Source of the DNA: Pedobacter sp. SYSU D00535
Lineage (GTDB): Bacteria; Bacteroidota; Bacteroidia; Sphingobacteriales; Sphingobacteriaceae
Length of the DNA stretch: 64,000 nt
Direction of reading: 5' to 3'
Assembly: GCF_017355855.1 (NCBI RefSeq)
Contig: NZ_JAFEWD010000001.1
Coordinates: 868,001-932,000 of the forward strand
Part shown: piece after piece, positions 3,022 to 12,412 of the stretch
Layout of the letters: each line of letters opens with the position of its first letter
Position numbering within the stretch: position 1 is the first letter of the stretch
Notes under the pieces: generated by a model
The model's input: only the letters and a program-made list of their open reading frames with translations
What the model was told of the DNA's origin: nothing
The model's database searches: none
Position numbers and translations under genes: made by a program

Positions 3022-4524
3022 CTAGCGTTTCACGAAACGCTCCAATTTGTCCGCAATCTTCCGGTCGTTTGATAATCTGGGAACCTTATTCTGGCCCCCA
3101 AGCTTACCTTCCGCTTTCATGTAATTAATAAAGGCATCTGCCTCCAGCTGTCGGATAATGAGGGGCTGTAGAATCCTACCCGAGATTAAATCATAGTAAT
3201 ACGAATTCTTTTTCTGTAACGCGGCATCTACCTTCATCCGAAAAGCGTCAAGGTCTGCCGGCGCTTTGGAAAATTCGATGAACCACTCGTGGTACGGCAA
3301 ACCGCCCTCCACAGGACTAACCTGCGGCGCTACCGTAAATTCTGTGATCTCAACTCCCTCATCCCTGGCTACTGATAAAATCGACTGTTCAACTTCTTCT
3401 CCAATTACATGCTCACCAAACGCTGATATAAAGTGTTTTATCCTTCCCGTCACCAAAATCTTATAGGGATTTTTAGAAACAAACTTTACCGTATCGCCGA
3501 TACTATATCCCCAGAGACCCGCATTCGTATTCAGGATGATGGCATAGTTCTTATTTAGCTCAACATCCCGCAGGGAAAGCCGTGTAGGGCTTTCATTAAA
3601 ATACTCCTCCGCCGGAACAAATTCATAAAAAATCCCTGAGTTGGCGAGCAGCAAAAGCCCCTCCTCTTGTTGAGAATCCTGGTAGGCAATAAAACCTTCG
3701 GAAGCAGGATAGGTTTCAATCGAGTCGATCTTCTTTCCAATAACCTCTTCCATTTTAGCCCGGTACGGTTCGTAGTTAACACCGCCATACACGAAAAGGC
3801 TGAAATTTTTGAAAATATCTTTGATTTTTTTTCCCCCTGCCCGCTCCGATAACCTGTCGAAATACATCTGCACCCAAGGCGGAATACCCGAGATGAGACG
3901 CATGTCCTCGTTGATTGTTTCACCTACAATGGCATCCACCTTCTCTTCCCAGTCTTCAATGCAGTTGGTCTGGTAGGATGGCAGACGATTCTTCTGCAGG
4001 TACTGAGGAACGTGATGAGCAGTGATACCCGACAACCTTCCGGTAGGCACTTTGTACTTCGTATCCAGCACGGGACTGCCCTGAAGAAAGATCATTTTTC
4101 CATCGACAAAATCTGCTTTACCAGTCTCATGTACATAGGTAAGAAGGGCGTTTCTGGCTGCCTTTATGTGCTCAGGCATCGATTCCTTGGATATAGGGAT
4201 ATATTTAACGCCAGAGGTAGTTCCCGAGGTTTTAGCGAAATAAATCGGGAGACCCGGCCATAATACGTTCTCCTCTCCCTTTACTACCCGTTCAATGTAG
4301 GCTTTCAGCTCTTCATAATCTCTGATGGGTACCTGCTTTTTGAAATCCTCATAAGAGCGTATTTCAGCAAACTTATGATCTTTCCCAAAAGCTGTTTCTC
4401 TGGCCGATGCTATTAATTTCTGAAAAACTGCCTCCTGCACCTCGGCTGCCCGCTTCTTCCATTTATTTACTTGCCGGACAGCGAAATAAGCAAAGGGTTT
4501 GCTTAATGCTGATTTTAGTCCCAT
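3022..4524 (-). CDS. GH3 (auxin-responsive promoter) family adenylating enzyme
   Basis: The protein belongs to the GH3 branch of acyl-adenylating (ANL-like) enzymes; plant members join amino acids to jasmonate or auxin, while the bacterial substrates are unknown. The N-terminal helical region (VNKWKKRAAEVQEAVFQKLI) is followed by the phosphate-binding loop FAKTSGTTSGVKYIP near residues 108-122, the family segment PEHIKAARNALL, and the later motif YGGVNYEPY. The segment LVTGRIKHFISAFGEHV near residues 355-375 is the hinge leading to the small C-terminal domain. Length of 500 aa matches bacterial members. It sits between a membrane protein gene (6-base gap) and dxr. The family assignment is firm; the reaction is not known. 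Confidence 0.85.
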   Translation of the reverse strand: MGLKSALSKPFAYFAVRQVNKWKKRAAEVQEAVFQKLIASARETAFGKDHKFAEIRSYEDFKKQVPIRDYEELKAYIERVVKGEENVLWPGLPIYFAKTSGTTSGVKYIPISKESMPEHIKAARNALLTYVHETGKADFVDGKMIFLQGSPVLDTKYKVPTGRLSGITAHHVPQYLQKNRLPSYQTNCIEDWEEKVDAIVGETINEDMRLISGIPPWVQMYFDRLSERAGGKKIKDIFKNFSLFVYGGVNYEPYRAKMEEVIGKKIDSIETYPASEGFIAYQDSQQEEGLLLLANSGIFYEFVPAEEYFNESPTRLSLRDVELNKNYAIILNTNAGLWGYSIGDTVKFVSKNPYKILVTGRIKHFISAFGEHVIGEEVEQSILSVARDEGVEITEFTVAPQVSPVEGGLPYHEWFIEFSKAPADLDAFRMKVDAALQKKNSYYYDLISGRILQPLIIRQLEADAFINYMKAEGKLGGQNKVPRLSNDRKIADKLERFVKR

Positions 4525-7668: not shown

Positions 7669-8238
7669 TTACTCTTTGTTCGAATAAGGGGCTTCCCTTT
7701 TGAAGATCGCAGCAAATATTAGTGATACAACAAAGATGACGATGATAGAAACTACTATACCTTGAATTAGCTTGCCGGCACCTGGAGCCGCCTCCTCGTC
7801 CATACTTTCCCGAATCTGTTCTACCTTTTCGTCGATCTGCTCGGTTGCCATGCCTTGCCGTTCCATCATCGAAGATGTTACTTTTATTACATTCTCCTTT
7901 ACCGCCGTATTGACCCCGGGATTAACAGTTTTTGTGAAAGCATACGTCCCAAGAGAATAAAGAAAATAGGCCACCACAAACATGATAAAAATCCCACTGG
8001 TCGCTTCCCGCAAGGACCAATAACCCCCAATGCTTTTCCGAAGATTTAAACAAAAATAAACCGCAATACCAAGCGGTAACAACAGACTAAGAAGCAGGGG
8101 AAAAGACAAAATAACAGCAGCAGAATCAGTGCTGGCCAGAATGTACAGTGAGATGATAGCAACAACCAACTGGATGGCACCAAATATCAAACCATTTACG
8201 GCTGCCTTTTTCTGCAGCGCTGCTTTTGAGAATTGCAT
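7669..8238 (-). CDS. DUF4199 family membrane protein
   Basis: A 189-aa membrane protein matching the DUF4199 pattern, which is common in Bacteroidota and has no known function. The N-terminus QKKAAVNGLIFGAIQLVVAI opens the first of four hydrophobic segments (about residues 15-38, 43-66, 80-105 and 155-180). Between segments three and four is a soluble loop rich in Glu, Met and Gln (MMERQGMATEQIDEKVEQI), typical of the family. One base separates it from the acidic protein gene upstream, so the two are probably co-transcribed after the dihydroorotase-like gene. In several Bacteroidota DUF4199 genes lie near dihydroorotase and glycosyltransferase genes, as here. Confidence 0.85.
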   Translation of the reverse strand: MQFSKAALQKKAAVNGLIFGAIQLVVAIISLYILASTDSAAVILSFPLLLSLLLPLGIAVYFCLNLRKSIGGYWSLREATSGIFIMFVVAYFLYSLGTYAFTKTVNPGVNTAVKENVIKVTSSMMERQGMATEQIDEKVEQIRESMDEEAAPGAGKLIQGIVVSIIVIFVVSLIFAAIFKREAPYSNKE

Positions 8239-8239
8239 A

Positions 8240-8911
8240 TTAGTTTTGATTAAAGGCCGTTAGCAAGGCATATACAGGAACGTCAAATTCCGGATCTTCG
8301 CTGTTTGCTTTAAACGTTTCAATGTCGTTTTCGGATGGCTGCTGCTGGTAGAAAAATGCCATAACAGGATAAAATAGCTCCTTGAAATCAGAAGATTCAT
8401 CCAGCCCTTTAGCTACCCGGGAGATCTCTTCCAGGTCGCTCTCCATCAGCATTTGATTTGCAATAACATCCTCGTAAATACGGTGTTCATCCTGGAACTC
8501 ATCTTCATCCACCAACAAAAATTCCTTCAAAAAATCTTCCAGGTCAGGCTCGATATCCTCATCCTGACACTCCCTAATGTAAAGCAACACGTTAAGCAGC
8601 TCAGTGCCACGATCAATTGTCTCGTCCTCAATGGCTTCCCACTCTTCCGATTCCAGGTAATCCTCCTCCAGTTTCTTAACGTCTTCCACAAAGAAGTTGA
8701 TCATCAGAAGGTCGAAGAACACTTCCCTGAGCGCCTCCAGTTTAGGGTAGTCATCAAATGCTTCGTCCAGCTCATCTACCTTCTCCATAAATTCCTTGTC
8801 GGCATCTAATATGCCCACAATACGTGTCCGAAACTCGGCTGTATTTTCAGAACTTACCTTTTCAAATTGCTGAAGCGCAGCATTCAAAGACTTTTCTACT
8901 TGCTTATCCAT
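8240..8911 (-). CDS. Acidic cytoplasmic protein of unknown function
   Basis: A 223-aa protein with no signal peptide and no membrane segment. It is strongly acidic: Asp and Glu are dense throughout, for example EEDYLESEEWEAIEDETID and LVDEDEFQDEHRIYED. Predicted structure by eye is mostly alpha-helical. I do not recognise the family. It is four bases downstream of the dihydroorotase-like gene and one base upstream of the DUF4199 gene, a tight three-gene set. The conserved spacing suggests co-expression, but no function can be assigned from the sequence. Confidence 0.75.
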   Translation of the reverse strand: MDKQVEKSLNAALQQFEKVSSENTAEFRTRIVGILDADKEFMEKVDELDEAFDDYPKLEALREVFFDLLMINFFVEDVKKLEEDYLESEEWEAIEDETIDRGTELLNVLLYIRECQDEDIEPDLEDFLKEFLLVDEDEFQDEHRIYEDVIANQMLMESDLEEISRVAKGLDESSDFKELFYPVMAFFYQQQPSENDIETFKANSEDPEFDVPVYALLTAFNQN

Positions 8912-8915
8912 AGGT

Positions 8916-10184
8916 TCAAGAATTAGTGTATACCTGATTGTTGTTCGCTGTTAGAATTACCTTTCCCTGCAGCTTTTGTTCTAAAAATGGTGTATTTGCC
9001 GACTTCGACCTGTTACTTGATCTCTCGAAAATCCACTCTTCGTTCATATCAAATAATACCAGGTTCGCCGGCTCTCCTGCCTCAAATACAGGAACCGGAA
9101 GGTTCAAAATCTGCCGGGGTTTGATAGCCAGCTTCTCCACAATCTCTGCAGCTGTTAACCTGGCCAATACCAGGGCGGGCAGCACTGTCTGTAATCCGAT
9201 GATCCCAAAAGAGGCAATTTCAAACTCCACCTCTTTATATTCAATTTCGTGCGGCGTGTGTTGAGAGACCACCGCATCGATAGTGCCATCGCGCAAGCCC
9301 TCTAACAGAGCTCTTACATCTGCAGCAGTTCTCAGGGGCGGCTTAACTTTGTAGTTGCTGTCAAAGCCTGCCAACTCCTCATCTGTCAGCACCAAATGAT
9401 GAGCAGCCACGTCACAGGTAACTTTAAGTCCCCGTTTTTTTGCCTCCCGGATTAAAGCCACGCTACGACCAGAAGAAATAGTGCTGAAATGAATGGGAGA
9501 GTCGTTGTATTCCGCCAGGTAAAGATCTCTGGAGATCTGTACTTCCTCGGCCAGCGCAGGTATTCCTTTCATACCAAGGTAAGTGCTCATCTCTCCTTCG
9601 TTCATTTTTCCCTTGCCGGCGATAGAGACATCTTCCGGAAAGGAAAAAATAAGTCCATCGAAGCCTTTTGCGTACATCAAAGCCCGGCTCATCAGGCCAG
9701 AGTCGGTAACTGGACGGGTACCATCGCTAAATGCTACCGCCCCTGCTAAACGCATGTCATACAACTCGGCAATATCCTTCCCTTCCCTGTTATAGCTGAT
9801 ACAGCCCACAGGATAGATGTCAGTTAAAAAATCCCTACTTCTGTTAACGATATAGGCCACTTCTGCCTTTGAATGAACAGGTGGGTTAGTTGCTGGCTGT
9901 ACTGCTACTCCGGTAAAGCCTCCCGCCGCCGCCGCAAGGCTGCCCGACAACAGATCTTCCCTGGTTTCATAGCCCGGCTCGCCGAAGTTAGCGTTCAAAT
10001 CAAAGAAACCCGGAGCCAGATTTTTTCCTTCTGCATCAATCAGCATAACATCTGCTTCCTCTGCATTTACCTGATCTGCAATCTCAGCAATTCTACCATC
10101 TTTTATAAGTACATCGACTTTTTTTCCATCAAATTGCGAGAGCGGATGAATGATCGTGACTGAACGAAGAAGTATAGTTTTCAT
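8916..10184 (-). CDS. Dihydroorotase-like protein lacking the metal site (probable pseudoenzyme)
   Basis: By fold this is a class I dihydroorotase (amidohydrolase family), the pyrimidine-pathway enzyme that closes carbamoyl-aspartate to dihydroorotate. The scaffold is intact over 422 aa: APGFFDLNANFGEPG (57-71), GGFTGVAVQPATNPP, MNEGEMSTYLGMKGIPALAEEV, AAHHLVLTDEEL and SQHTPHE (307-313). The metal and catalytic positions are changed. The HxH pair is Asn64/Asn66, the His of the HxED motif is Phe (FPED, about 182-185), the HVST His is Thr (near 235) and the catalytic Asp of TDHAPH is Gln308. It is thus unlikely to be a zinc hydrolase. Pseudomonas PyrC' is a known inactive homologue that assembles with aspartate transcarbamoylase; a similar role here is inference. 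It heads the operon with the acidic and DUF4199 genes. Confidence 0.85.
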   Translation of the reverse strand: MKTILLRSVTIIHPLSQFDGKKVDVLIKDGRIAEIADQVNAEEADVMLIDAEGKNLAPGFFDLNANFGEPGYETREDLLSGSLAAAAGGFTGVAVQPATNPPVHSKAEVAYIVNRSRDFLTDIYPVGCISYNREGKDIAELYDMRLAGAVAFSDGTRPVTDSGLMSRALMYAKGFDGLIFSFPEDVSIAGKGKMNEGEMSTYLGMKGIPALAEEVQISRDLYLAEYNDSPIHFSTISSGRSVALIREAKKRGLKVTCDVAAHHLVLTDEELAGFDSNYKVKPPLRTAADVRALLEGLRDGTIDAVVSQHTPHEIEYKEVEFEIASFGIIGLQTVLPALVLARLTAAEIVEKLAIKPRQILNLPVPVFEAGEPANLVLFDMNEEWIFERSSNRSKSANTPFLEQKLQGKVILTANNNQVYTNS

Positions 10185-10261: not shown

Positions 10262-12301
10262 CTATATGCTGACCTTCCCGTTCTTTATAAACGTGATGAT
10301 AAAAATCTCTGCTGCCAGGAAAATCAGGGCTAAAATTAGACAAAGTTTCCACAACTGCATACCATAATTTACAGCTTTAATTGCCGTGTCGATGGATTCG
10401 CGGCCGGGTTGAAACACATCTACTTTCTGCTTAGGGAATTTTTCTTTCAACTCATCTTCGCTTGCATAGGACAGGTCCGACTCCGACCGGTTGTCGTTGA
10501 ACGCATAAACGGCTAGCAAGCTATCCCCCTTCAGCAGGTCGTAGTTCCCCTGCCGTCTCACCTGATCCGCAATAAATAAACGGGTACCTCCTCCTCCCGG
10601 TCGCACATCCGGAATAGCCTCGAACTCTTTGTTTCTCAGCCTCAAACTTTGGTTAGGAGAAAGGGCGATGTTTCCTGCTTCCAGAAACTGATCTTTGCCA
10701 ACAATGTAGAAAAGACGATTATCCCGAAGGCTTAGAAAGGCCGACTGGTACATCAGCGGAACAAAAACCGAATGTCTTACCAGATTACTTGCCTCTTCGT
10801 CGAGTGGCACGGCAGAAAGATAAACACTCCCCTTGCCTAACCTGAACTGGCTTAGGAATGTTCTTCTGCCTGGAAGCTCCAGTATCGGTTGTTTTGCTGC
10901 GCCGCTCCTGGCATATTGAATATATCTTCCAGCCCTCGGCAAATCCATGTTCTTAGGCAGCTGCTCAAACACGCCTGCAAACAATGGATGACGAAGATTG
11001 ATACTGCTTACCCTTGTTTCCTGAGCGACAATACCTTGAGGGCTATCCGTACCAAGGGCCTGACTGAGCGTGCGCAAGCCGCTCAAATCCTCTGTCAAAG
11101 AAGGGAAAACCATGAGCGTACCACCCTGCTGCACATAGCCCTTGAGCTGTTGCGCGAGCCCTTCCGAGATCTGGCCACTCCCGTTTAAAATTACCGTAGG
11201 ATAAGAGGCTAGCGAAGAATAGTTGATACTGGCCAGGTTGGTATTTACAAGATTGAAAAAAGGATCGGCGCTATAGACTGCCTGCAGGTAAGGATTAACT
11301 GCTTGTTCGTTAATAGCCAGCACCTGAAGCCGCCTTTCCACAAAAAAGGTGAAGTGAAAGCGGTCATCAAACACGATAGGGTAGTCGGTAATGGTTACTT
11401 CTCCCCTTCGCCAGCCTCCTTGCAGTCCGCTAAATGATAGTGTGTCGCGACTGCTGCCCCTTGCTTCCACAGGCAAACTCGCAATCGCTTTTTGCTGACC
11501 ATTGATCGTCAGCTTCAAAGGCACGCTCTCCGCTTTTTTATCGGAGTTATTCCTAAGCTGCACCACCAGCTGTTCAGTCTCGCCCGGACGGTGAACCGGT
11601 GAAAGGAACCAAACCGAATCAACGGAAATATTAGGGGAAGGGTTAGCGGTCAGTCGTACCAGACGAAGATTAATGCCCGTATCTACTTCCAAACTTCCTG
11701 GATCGACCATGTTCTTCTGAAAATCAGAAACCATATAGATCGTCTTGCCTGCATTCTCCGCCGAAACGATATCCTGCTGGCGATTCAACACCTGGCTCAT
11801 GCTCCGGCTGCTTGCGCTAATCTTTACCTCGTCGACCGCTGCTACAAAATCCTCGTAGCTCAGAAGTCGCTGATGCCGGCCCTCAAAATCATTCGTTAAG
11901 AGCTGAAACCGGTCGTTCATTCCATGAGCAGCAGCGATTTCCTTTGCCCGCCGCTTTGCCTCATCCAATAGAGTACCTTCCCGATTGACGGTTTCCAAGC
12001 TATAAGAATTATCGATATAGATACTGATCGCCTGATCGCGATGTCCTGCGGCATCAGTTCCGGAAGGGATGTAGGGCCGTGCAAAAGCAAAAACCAGAAA
12101 AACTATGGCGAGAACCCGGGCTGCCAGCAGCAACCAATCCCTGATTTGCCGGGAGGAAGACGTTTTTTGCTCAATTTCCTTTAGAAAGCGGACATTACTA
12201 AAATATACCTTCTTAAATTTTCGAAAATTGAACAGATGTATAATTACCGGGATAGCAACAGCAAATAAGGCAAAAAGAAATCCGGGAAAAAGGAATCTCA
12301 T
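10262..12301 (-). CDS. BatA/von Willebrand domain membrane protein
   Basis: A 679-aa inner-membrane protein with the N-terminal BatA domain: MRFLFPGFLFALFAVAIPVI followed by HLFNFRKFKKVYFSNVRFL and a second helix DWLLLAARVLAIVFLVFAFARP. A von Willebrand type A fold begins after that, with the metal-site motif IDNSYS (Asp-x-Ser-x-Ser). The middle (about 190-290) is a beta-sandwich-like extracytoplasmic region, then a glutamine-amidotransferase-like domain with TVILNGSGQISEGLAQQLK. A last transmembrane helix lies close to the C-terminus (LWKLCLILALIFLAAEIFII). Function is unknown; BatA relatives are linked to aerotolerance and envelope stress. The ATG at 12301 is preferred over a TTG two codons upstream. 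Confidence 0.85.
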   Translation of the reverse strand: MRFLFPGFLFALFAVAIPVIIHLFNFRKFKKVYFSNVRFLKEIEQKTSSSRQIRDWLLLAARVLAIVFLVFAFARPYIPSGTDAAGHRDQAISIYIDNSYSLETVNREGTLLDEAKRRAKEIAAAHGMNDRFQLLTNDFEGRHQRLLSYEDFVAAVDEVKISASSRSMSQVLNRQQDIVSAENAGKTIYMVSDFQKNMVDPGSLEVDTGINLRLVRLTANPSPNISVDSVWFLSPVHRPGETEQLVVQLRNNSDKKAESVPLKLTINGQQKAIASLPVEARGSSRDTLSFSGLQGGWRRGEVTITDYPIVFDDRFHFTFFVERRLQVLAINEQAVNPYLQAVYSADPFFNLVNTNLASINYSSLASYPTVILNGSGQISEGLAQQLKGYVQQGGTLMVFPSLTEDLSGLRTLSQALGTDSPQGIVAQETRVSSINLRHPLFAGVFEQLPKNMDLPRAGRYIQYARSGAAKQPILELPGRRTFLSQFRLGKGSVYLSAVPLDEEASNLVRHSVFVPLMYQSAFLSLRDNRLFYIVGKDQFLEAGNIALSPNQSLRLRNKEFEAIPDVRPGGGGTRLFIADQVRRQGNYDLLKGDSLLAVYAFNDNRSESDLSYASEDELKEKFPKQKVDVFQPGRESIDTAIKAVNYGMQLWKLCLILALIFLAAEIFIITFIKNGKVSI

Positions 12302-12412
12302 TAACAATCAAAGTTAGTCTTTTGAACAAACAATAACGCCAAAAAGCTGAAATTGATTATCTAAACGGAAAGCTGTCTCAAAAACACTACAATAAAAAAG
12401 AAGAAAGGTGCT

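Follow-up and report, generated by a model that had tools for sequence, protein, structure and literature searches.

A dihydroorotase homologue with a broken metal site, widespread in the Bacteroidia, is a probable aspartate transcarbamoylase subunit

Introduction

What might a bacterium that carries an intact dihydroorotase (DHO) do with a second homologue in which most of the metal site has been replaced? The question is raised by a gene in the window (the whole stretch of 64,000 nucleotides analysed here), for which an earlier note had proposed a structural or regulatory pseudoenzyme resembling the PyrC' protein of Pseudomonas. Precedents come from the aspartate transcarbamoylases (ATCases). 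According to excerpts of PMC7053772, PyrB of P. aeruginosa is monomeric and inactive alone and forms an active dodecamer with a pseudo-DHO, and in Aquifex two ATCase trimers are joined by three DHO dimers. The definition of class A2 (the Pseudomonas PyrB-PyrC' type), as excerpted there, does not require the two genes to be adjacent; in the records of relatives a position of the pseudo-DHO gene next to pyrB is usual.

We consider it probable (roughly 0.75) that the window protein, here called pDHO, is a catalytically dead type-I DHO kept as an assembly subunit of ATCase, and perhaps also as a regulatory one, by analogy with these systems.

Results

The metal site of pDHO

The metal ligands of Aquifex DHO are His61, His63, Asp153, His180, His232 and Asp305 (PMC3880350, excerpt). 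The gene and the codons at the equivalent positions, assigned from the sequence and its alignment, are as follows.

8916..10184, minus strand: pseudo-dihydroorotase (pDHO, P0001), 422 aa, from its open reading frame, family scores, motifs and predicted fold
9987..9995, minus strand: codons of Asn64-Ala65-Asn66, the former HxH metal motif (Aquifex His61/His63)
9723..9725, minus strand: codon of Asp154 (Aquifex Asp153), the sole metal ligand retained, Asp in 127/133 aligned pseudo-DHOs
9639..9641, minus strand: codon of Phe182 (Aquifex His180, the His of HxED)
9480..9482, minus strand: codon of Thr235 (Aquifex His232, the His of HVST)
9261..9263, minus strand: codon of Gln308 (Aquifex Asp305, the Asp of TDHAPH)

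The motifs of pDHO read FDLNANFGEPG, SFPED, HFSTISS and SQHTPH. Five of the six ligand positions are replaced, and the ligand set of an active type-I DHO is lacking. The earlier claim that all metal and catalytic positions had been lost is correct for Asn64, Asn66, Phe182, Thr235 and Gln308 and goes slightly too far for Asp154 and for His309 and His312 of SQHTPH, which are kept. By score the protein passes the dihydroorotase family TIGR00857 (344 bits, cut-off 279), falls under the cut-off of every equivalog among the 25 of 39 matched families shown, and does not reach the gathering threshold of Pfam Amidohydro_1 (19.9 bits against 25). Since TIGR00857 is passed, and since a broken copy from Rufibacter carries the record name 'dihydroorotase', this name is probably mistaken in a large part of the class.

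An AlphaFold2 model of pDHO built with 44 sequences has a pLDDT of 96.2 and a pTM of 0.94. The best PDB match, by sequence and by predicted fold, is Aquifex DHO, including its complex with ATCase (3d6n_A, 4bjh_A; TM 0.94). Other bacterial DHOs reach TM 0.93–0.94, so the fold match is not specific to partners of ATCase. The open frames across the class and the confident DHO fold rule out a recent local pseudogene.

A second DHO and PyrB in the same genome

The earlier note had advised a search of the genome for a second, complete pyrC and for pyrB, and both were found. In the assembly, which is 99.9% complete in 20 contigs, TIGR00857 matches three places: pDHO, a second DHO at C11:625051 and one partial match of 29 bits. 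The second DHO has the motifs DDQVHFREPG, HCED, HILHIST and TDHAPH, is of the intact type, and passes the equivalog NF006688 (727 bits, cut-off 535); its best PDB match, 2gwn, is a dihydroorotase by title. PyrB is encoded on contig C18 and pDHO on C11, so that the pDHO gene does not lie next to pyrB. This PyrB is equally near to 6pnz and to Aquifex PyrB, and the ORF preceding it is presumably PyrR. No PyrI was found in the assembly, and the same search of a control Bacteroides genome yields one. The genome thus combines PyrB with a separate intact DHO and no PyrI, the gene content of class A2 genomes and the outcome expected if the comparison with PyrC' is right. The structural part of that comparison is well supported.

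We note that in the DDQVH motif of the second DHO (L005) a Gln replaces the first His of HxH. The same is true of 2gwn, and relatives have either His or Gln.

Conservation of the broken site

We searched 392 genomes of the phylum and 296 of the source genome's own class, the Bacteroidia. In a first reading all 32 in-class orthologues were broken and all 16 from the other classes of the phylum were intact. A further 40 class loci (L061–L100, 12 of them from genomes of the first reading), together with L101 and a dozen strongly diverged copies (L103–L107, L110, L131–L136), proved broken as well, so that the catalytic site is broken in 73/73 distinct class genomes inspected. Their hosts include Mucilaginibacter, Pedobacter, Sphingobacterium, Flavobacterium, Polaribacter, Reichenbachiella and Spirosoma. 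Among the best 80 of 552 confirmed named loci, 76 are broken and four are intact, the latter from Balneolales, Acetivibrio, Melioribacteraceae and Longimonas, which we take to lie outside the class.

Residues were counted in 133 non-identical pseudo-DHO sequences, 14 very diverged ones being excluded. None keeps all five of the core residues equivalent to His61, His63, His180, His232 and Asp305: no core residue is left in 42 sequences, one in 67, two in 19 and three in five. All five are kept in 23 of 23 active type-I entries (one sequence occurring twice); the loss is not due to chance. At the His61 position the six commonest residues among the 133 are Asn (37), Ser (27), Gln (24), Arg (18), His (8) and Gly (7), and the pseudo-DHOs vary more at His61, His63, His180 and His232 than they do at the median column.

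Family f89 (L131–L135) has extremely diverged pseudo-DHO-like ORFs of 381–426 aa in which the His309 motif is lost too. A half-decayed copy was seen in a Bacteroidetes metagenome-assembled genome (L197, 6001–7269), where HxH is lost and the equivalents of His180, His232, Asp305, Arg65 and Asn95 remain.

Origin of the pseudo-DHOs

In each of two trees the sampled pseudo-DHOs of the class (53 and 33 sequences) lie together on one side of a branch with an SH-aLRT of 100. Both trees are quick searches with long branches, and the positions of the most diverged sequences are unsure. In the second tree three proteobacterial relatives whose motifs are gone (Acinetobacter, Sphingomonas, Sinorhizobium) form a separate group inside the active DHOs, which implies at least two losses of DHO activity on this long-branched tree. 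Those of Sphingomonas and Sinorhizobium are annotated directly after PyrB. Judged by sequence, the pseudo-DHO of the class probably arose independently of the proteobacterial ones, as a variant of the PyrB-PyrC' theme. An intact DHO directly follows PyrB in out-of-class L217, G224 and G188, and we infer that the ancestral arrangement was a pyrB-pyrC pair.

Presence of pseudo-DHO and the type of PyrB

Of the 296 class genomes, 254 match pDHO at E ≤ 1e-40. One of these (G072) was removed, as what matches there is an intact DHO that immediately follows PyrB, and 12 diverged copies found by profile were added, giving up to 265/296, of which 192 are counted by score alone. PyrB is present in 263 of these 265 and was not found in the other two (G406, G500). 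PyrI matches at E 2.7e-40 or lower occur in 15 of the 296 genomes, 13 of them above the curated cut-off. No pseudo-DHO was found in any of the 15 by BLAST or profile, and the best DHO match read in 13 of them is of the intact type; PyrI and pseudo-DHO were never found together among the 296. A further PyrI match in G029 (E 1.2e-5) contains five stops and was disregarded.

The 31 genomes without a pseudo-DHO comprise the 15 with PyrI, three with another type of PyrB (G012 and G095 of family f3, and G462), G072 with an active pyrB-pyrC pair instead, four with neither pseudo-DHO nor PyrB (G166, G420, G449, G546), and eight with PyrB and no complete pseudo-DHO (G562, G604, G566, G609, G568, G438, G423, G532). 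G367, which belongs to the phylum set only, likewise has no PyrB and, by score, no pseudo-DHO. The other five sampled members of the genus of G462 keep pseudo-DHO. Absence of pseudo-DHO therefore goes along with loss or exchange of PyrB, and co-occurrence and co-loss hold with the eight PyrB-only and two pseudo-DHO-only genomes as exceptions. Among the eight, BatA, the usual upstream neighbour, stops at a contig edge in G562 and G604, and in G423 a contig end truncates the pseudo-DHO; the other five have no such explanation. Since the PyrI genomes lie in few families, the independent events are fewer than the genomes counted.

Three candidates were not accepted as pseudo-DHOs: a 31-residue match at the empty locus of G420 (E 0.007), and a profile match in G586 (L102) and a fragment in G568 (L314), both of which belong to intact-type DHOs.

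The PyrBs themselves differ between these groups. Identity to the PyrB of the source genome is 32–36% in the PyrI genomes, 32% in G462, 40–42% in eight f3 genomes, 48% in G072 and 53–78% in most other pseudo-DHO genomes tested. Family f89 counts against the link to PyrB, as its PyrB is only 47–49% identical to that of the source genome and yet a diverged pseudo-DHO is present. In a tree of 67 PyrBs, in which L200 is not represented, the PyrI type, G462 and one PyrB of G503 split off with an SH-aLRT of 100, the f3 PyrBs make up a clade by themselves, and f89 and G615 lie outside the main pseudo-DHO group. That group (88, inner fork 96) unites the PyrBs of most pseudo-DHO genomes and stands next to out-of-class ones that accompany an intact DHO. 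This tree, too, is a quick search with long branches, in which the most diverged sequences are placed with little certainty.

Gene neighbourhood and alternative roles

The genes flanking pDHO in the window are the following.

10262..12307, minus strand: upstream neighbour, membrane protein with BatA N-terminal domain, 681 aa; present at 91/120 loci and judged not to be a partner
8240..8911, minus strand: downstream neighbour, acidic protein, 223 aa, no family match over cut-off (context)
7669..8238, minus strand: downstream neighbour, DUF4199 protein, 189 aa (context)

We surveyed 120 loci, of which four are outside the class and some are near-duplicates. BatA lies upstream of the pseudo-DHO in 91, a glycosyltransferase is nearby in 35, the acidic protein follows in 27 and DUF4199 is found in 26. 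PyrB adjoins at two out-of-class loci alone (L200, L217), as it also does in out-of-class G224 and G188, and lies beside the pseudo-DHO in no class locus read. The link to the acidic and DUF4199 proteins suggested by the earlier note was not borne out: both are far less frequent here than BatA, and BatA, DUF4199 and glycosyltransferase genes are found together where the pseudo-DHO is gone.

Elsewhere in the window, 3022–4524 on the minus strand encodes a GH3-family protein whose best NCBIfam match is OlsH (lyso-ornithine lipid synthetase), at 405 bits below the cut-off of 620. On 'plasmid 2' of Rufibacter tibetensis (L320, 12.5 kb), a pseudo-DHO, two DUF4199 genes and two glycosyltransferases make up the usual chromosomal cluster, and this record is possibly a misassembled piece of chromosome.

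The constancy of BatA, upstream and on the same strand, raises the alternative that the partners of pDHO are its cluster neighbours, genes for membrane and envelope functions (BatA, DUF4199, glycosyltransferases), and that its descent from a DHO is incidental. The partial distance correlation between pDHO and PyrB given BatA is 0.78 in the 20 of 25 genomes with all three proteins; on removal of two f78 genomes it falls to 0.17, and the distances of pDHO then track BatA instead (0.85 given PyrB). Moreover, among the 15 PyrI genomes BatA was not found in nine and is weak in three, and none was found in seven f3 genomes; because both absences coincide there, the pseudo-DHO may have been lost together with BatA in those genomes. 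Against this, ten genomes (G166, G367, G072, G420, G449, G546, G462, G492, G512, G586) keep BatA without pseudo-DHO, each lacking the native type of PyrB. In the stretches fetched from BatA-keeping genomes the place of the pseudo-DHO is empty, G512 and G546 showing the order BatA-DUF4199-glycosyltransferase with no pseudo-DHO between; in G462, an assembly of 410 contigs, tblastn found no start of a pseudo-DHO in the 307 bases from BatA to the contig end. Conversely, G091 has a pseudo-DHO and no BatA match, and in the out-of-class relatives read it is PyrB that the intact DHO adjoins. We regard a role in the envelope cluster as unlikely.

Still less likely is that pDHO remains an enzyme, acting as a DHO or another amidohydrolase through other residues, perhaps without zinc. 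Asp154, His309 and a large part of the scaffold persist, and PMC2770081 (excerpt) cites a PyrC paralogue of Pseudomonas that showed DHO activity although it lacks the zinc residues. However, the former catalytic positions vary by lineage, most of them above the median column, so that no new shared site is seen; the f89 copies lack His309 as well, and the genome already has an intact DHO. Least likely to our minds is that the association with PyrB type merely reflects shared ancestry, pDHO having some other role and being lost in the same lineages by chance. It is true that the PyrI genomes fall in few families, that f3 is a single family and that our counts ignore kinship, but pseudo-DHO is missing alongside a lost or exchanged PyrB in several separate families (those with PyrI, f3, f9, f86, and those of G546 and G462).

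Discussion

We therefore return to the ATCase subunit as the preferred role of pDHO. On the model of the holoenzymes of Aquifex (class A1) and Pseudomonas (class A2), pDHO dimers would link PyrB trimers into a dodecamer and would stabilise a composite ATCase active site, while dihydroorotate would be made by the second DHO, which belongs to another branch (C11:625051, DDQVHFREPG type). On this reading pDHO would bind PyrB in such a dodecamer, would be needed for ATCase activity and would have no DHO activity of its own.

Among known systems the closest in gene content is class A2, with a residue-lacking DHO homologue, PyrB, no PyrI and another DHO in the genome. It differs in that the pseudo-DHO of the Bacteroidia forms a clade apart from the three proteobacterial ones and is encoded away from pyrB, beside the BatA gene, the complex here being proposed from the genes. 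Class A1 (Aquifex aeolicus; 3d6n, 4bjh) offers the best match in sequence and fold, and out-of-class relatives have intact pyrB-pyrC pairs, but the Aquifex DHO is active in its complex, unlike a protein with five of six ligands replaced. In class B (PyrB-PyrI), PyrI would by analogy fill the same link between PyrB trimers (PMC7053772, excerpt), although it is an unrelated protein and was never found with a pseudo-DHO in the 296 class genomes. Yeast Ura2 also keeps a defective DHO-like domain with its ATCase (PMC7053772, excerpt; a reference title in PMC4581275); there, however, the domain is fused within a eukaryotic multienzyme, and we liken the two by description alone.

A broader and tentative proposal, which we hold to be somewhat short of an even chance, is that ATCase throughout almost all of the class strictly requires two genes, one of them coding for a dead DHO in the place of PyrI. 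Native-type PyrB would then be inactive alone, and the pseudo-DHO could be given up only when PyrB is lost or exchanged for a new one, whether this acts by itself or together with PyrI or an active PyrC. As to its origin, the dead DHO would have descended from an active class A1 partner once a second DHO had taken over catalysis.

If the preferred reading is true, bacteria of this class have a two-subunit ATCase hidden by annotation, and the same enzyme became a dead ATCase partner more than once. Our literature search, which most subscription papers lay outside, returned no paper on such a protein in Bacteroidota by title or start of abstract. The swaps between pseudo-DHO, PyrI and other PyrBs amount to a natural experiment on the purpose of ATCase partners.

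Two further observations concern the PyrBs of individual genomes. G503 (L297, L298) has, besides a native PyrB, a second one of the PyrI type; its pseudo-DHO lies elsewhere in the genome and no PyrI was found in it. Plasmid unnamed4 of Hymenobacter volaticus (L321) and G072 (L309) each carry an intact pyrB-pyrC pair, and their DHOs are nearly identical on the tree, which suggests that the pyrimidine pair was taken up by plasmid. In G166 and G367, of the same genus as G072, no PyrB was found.
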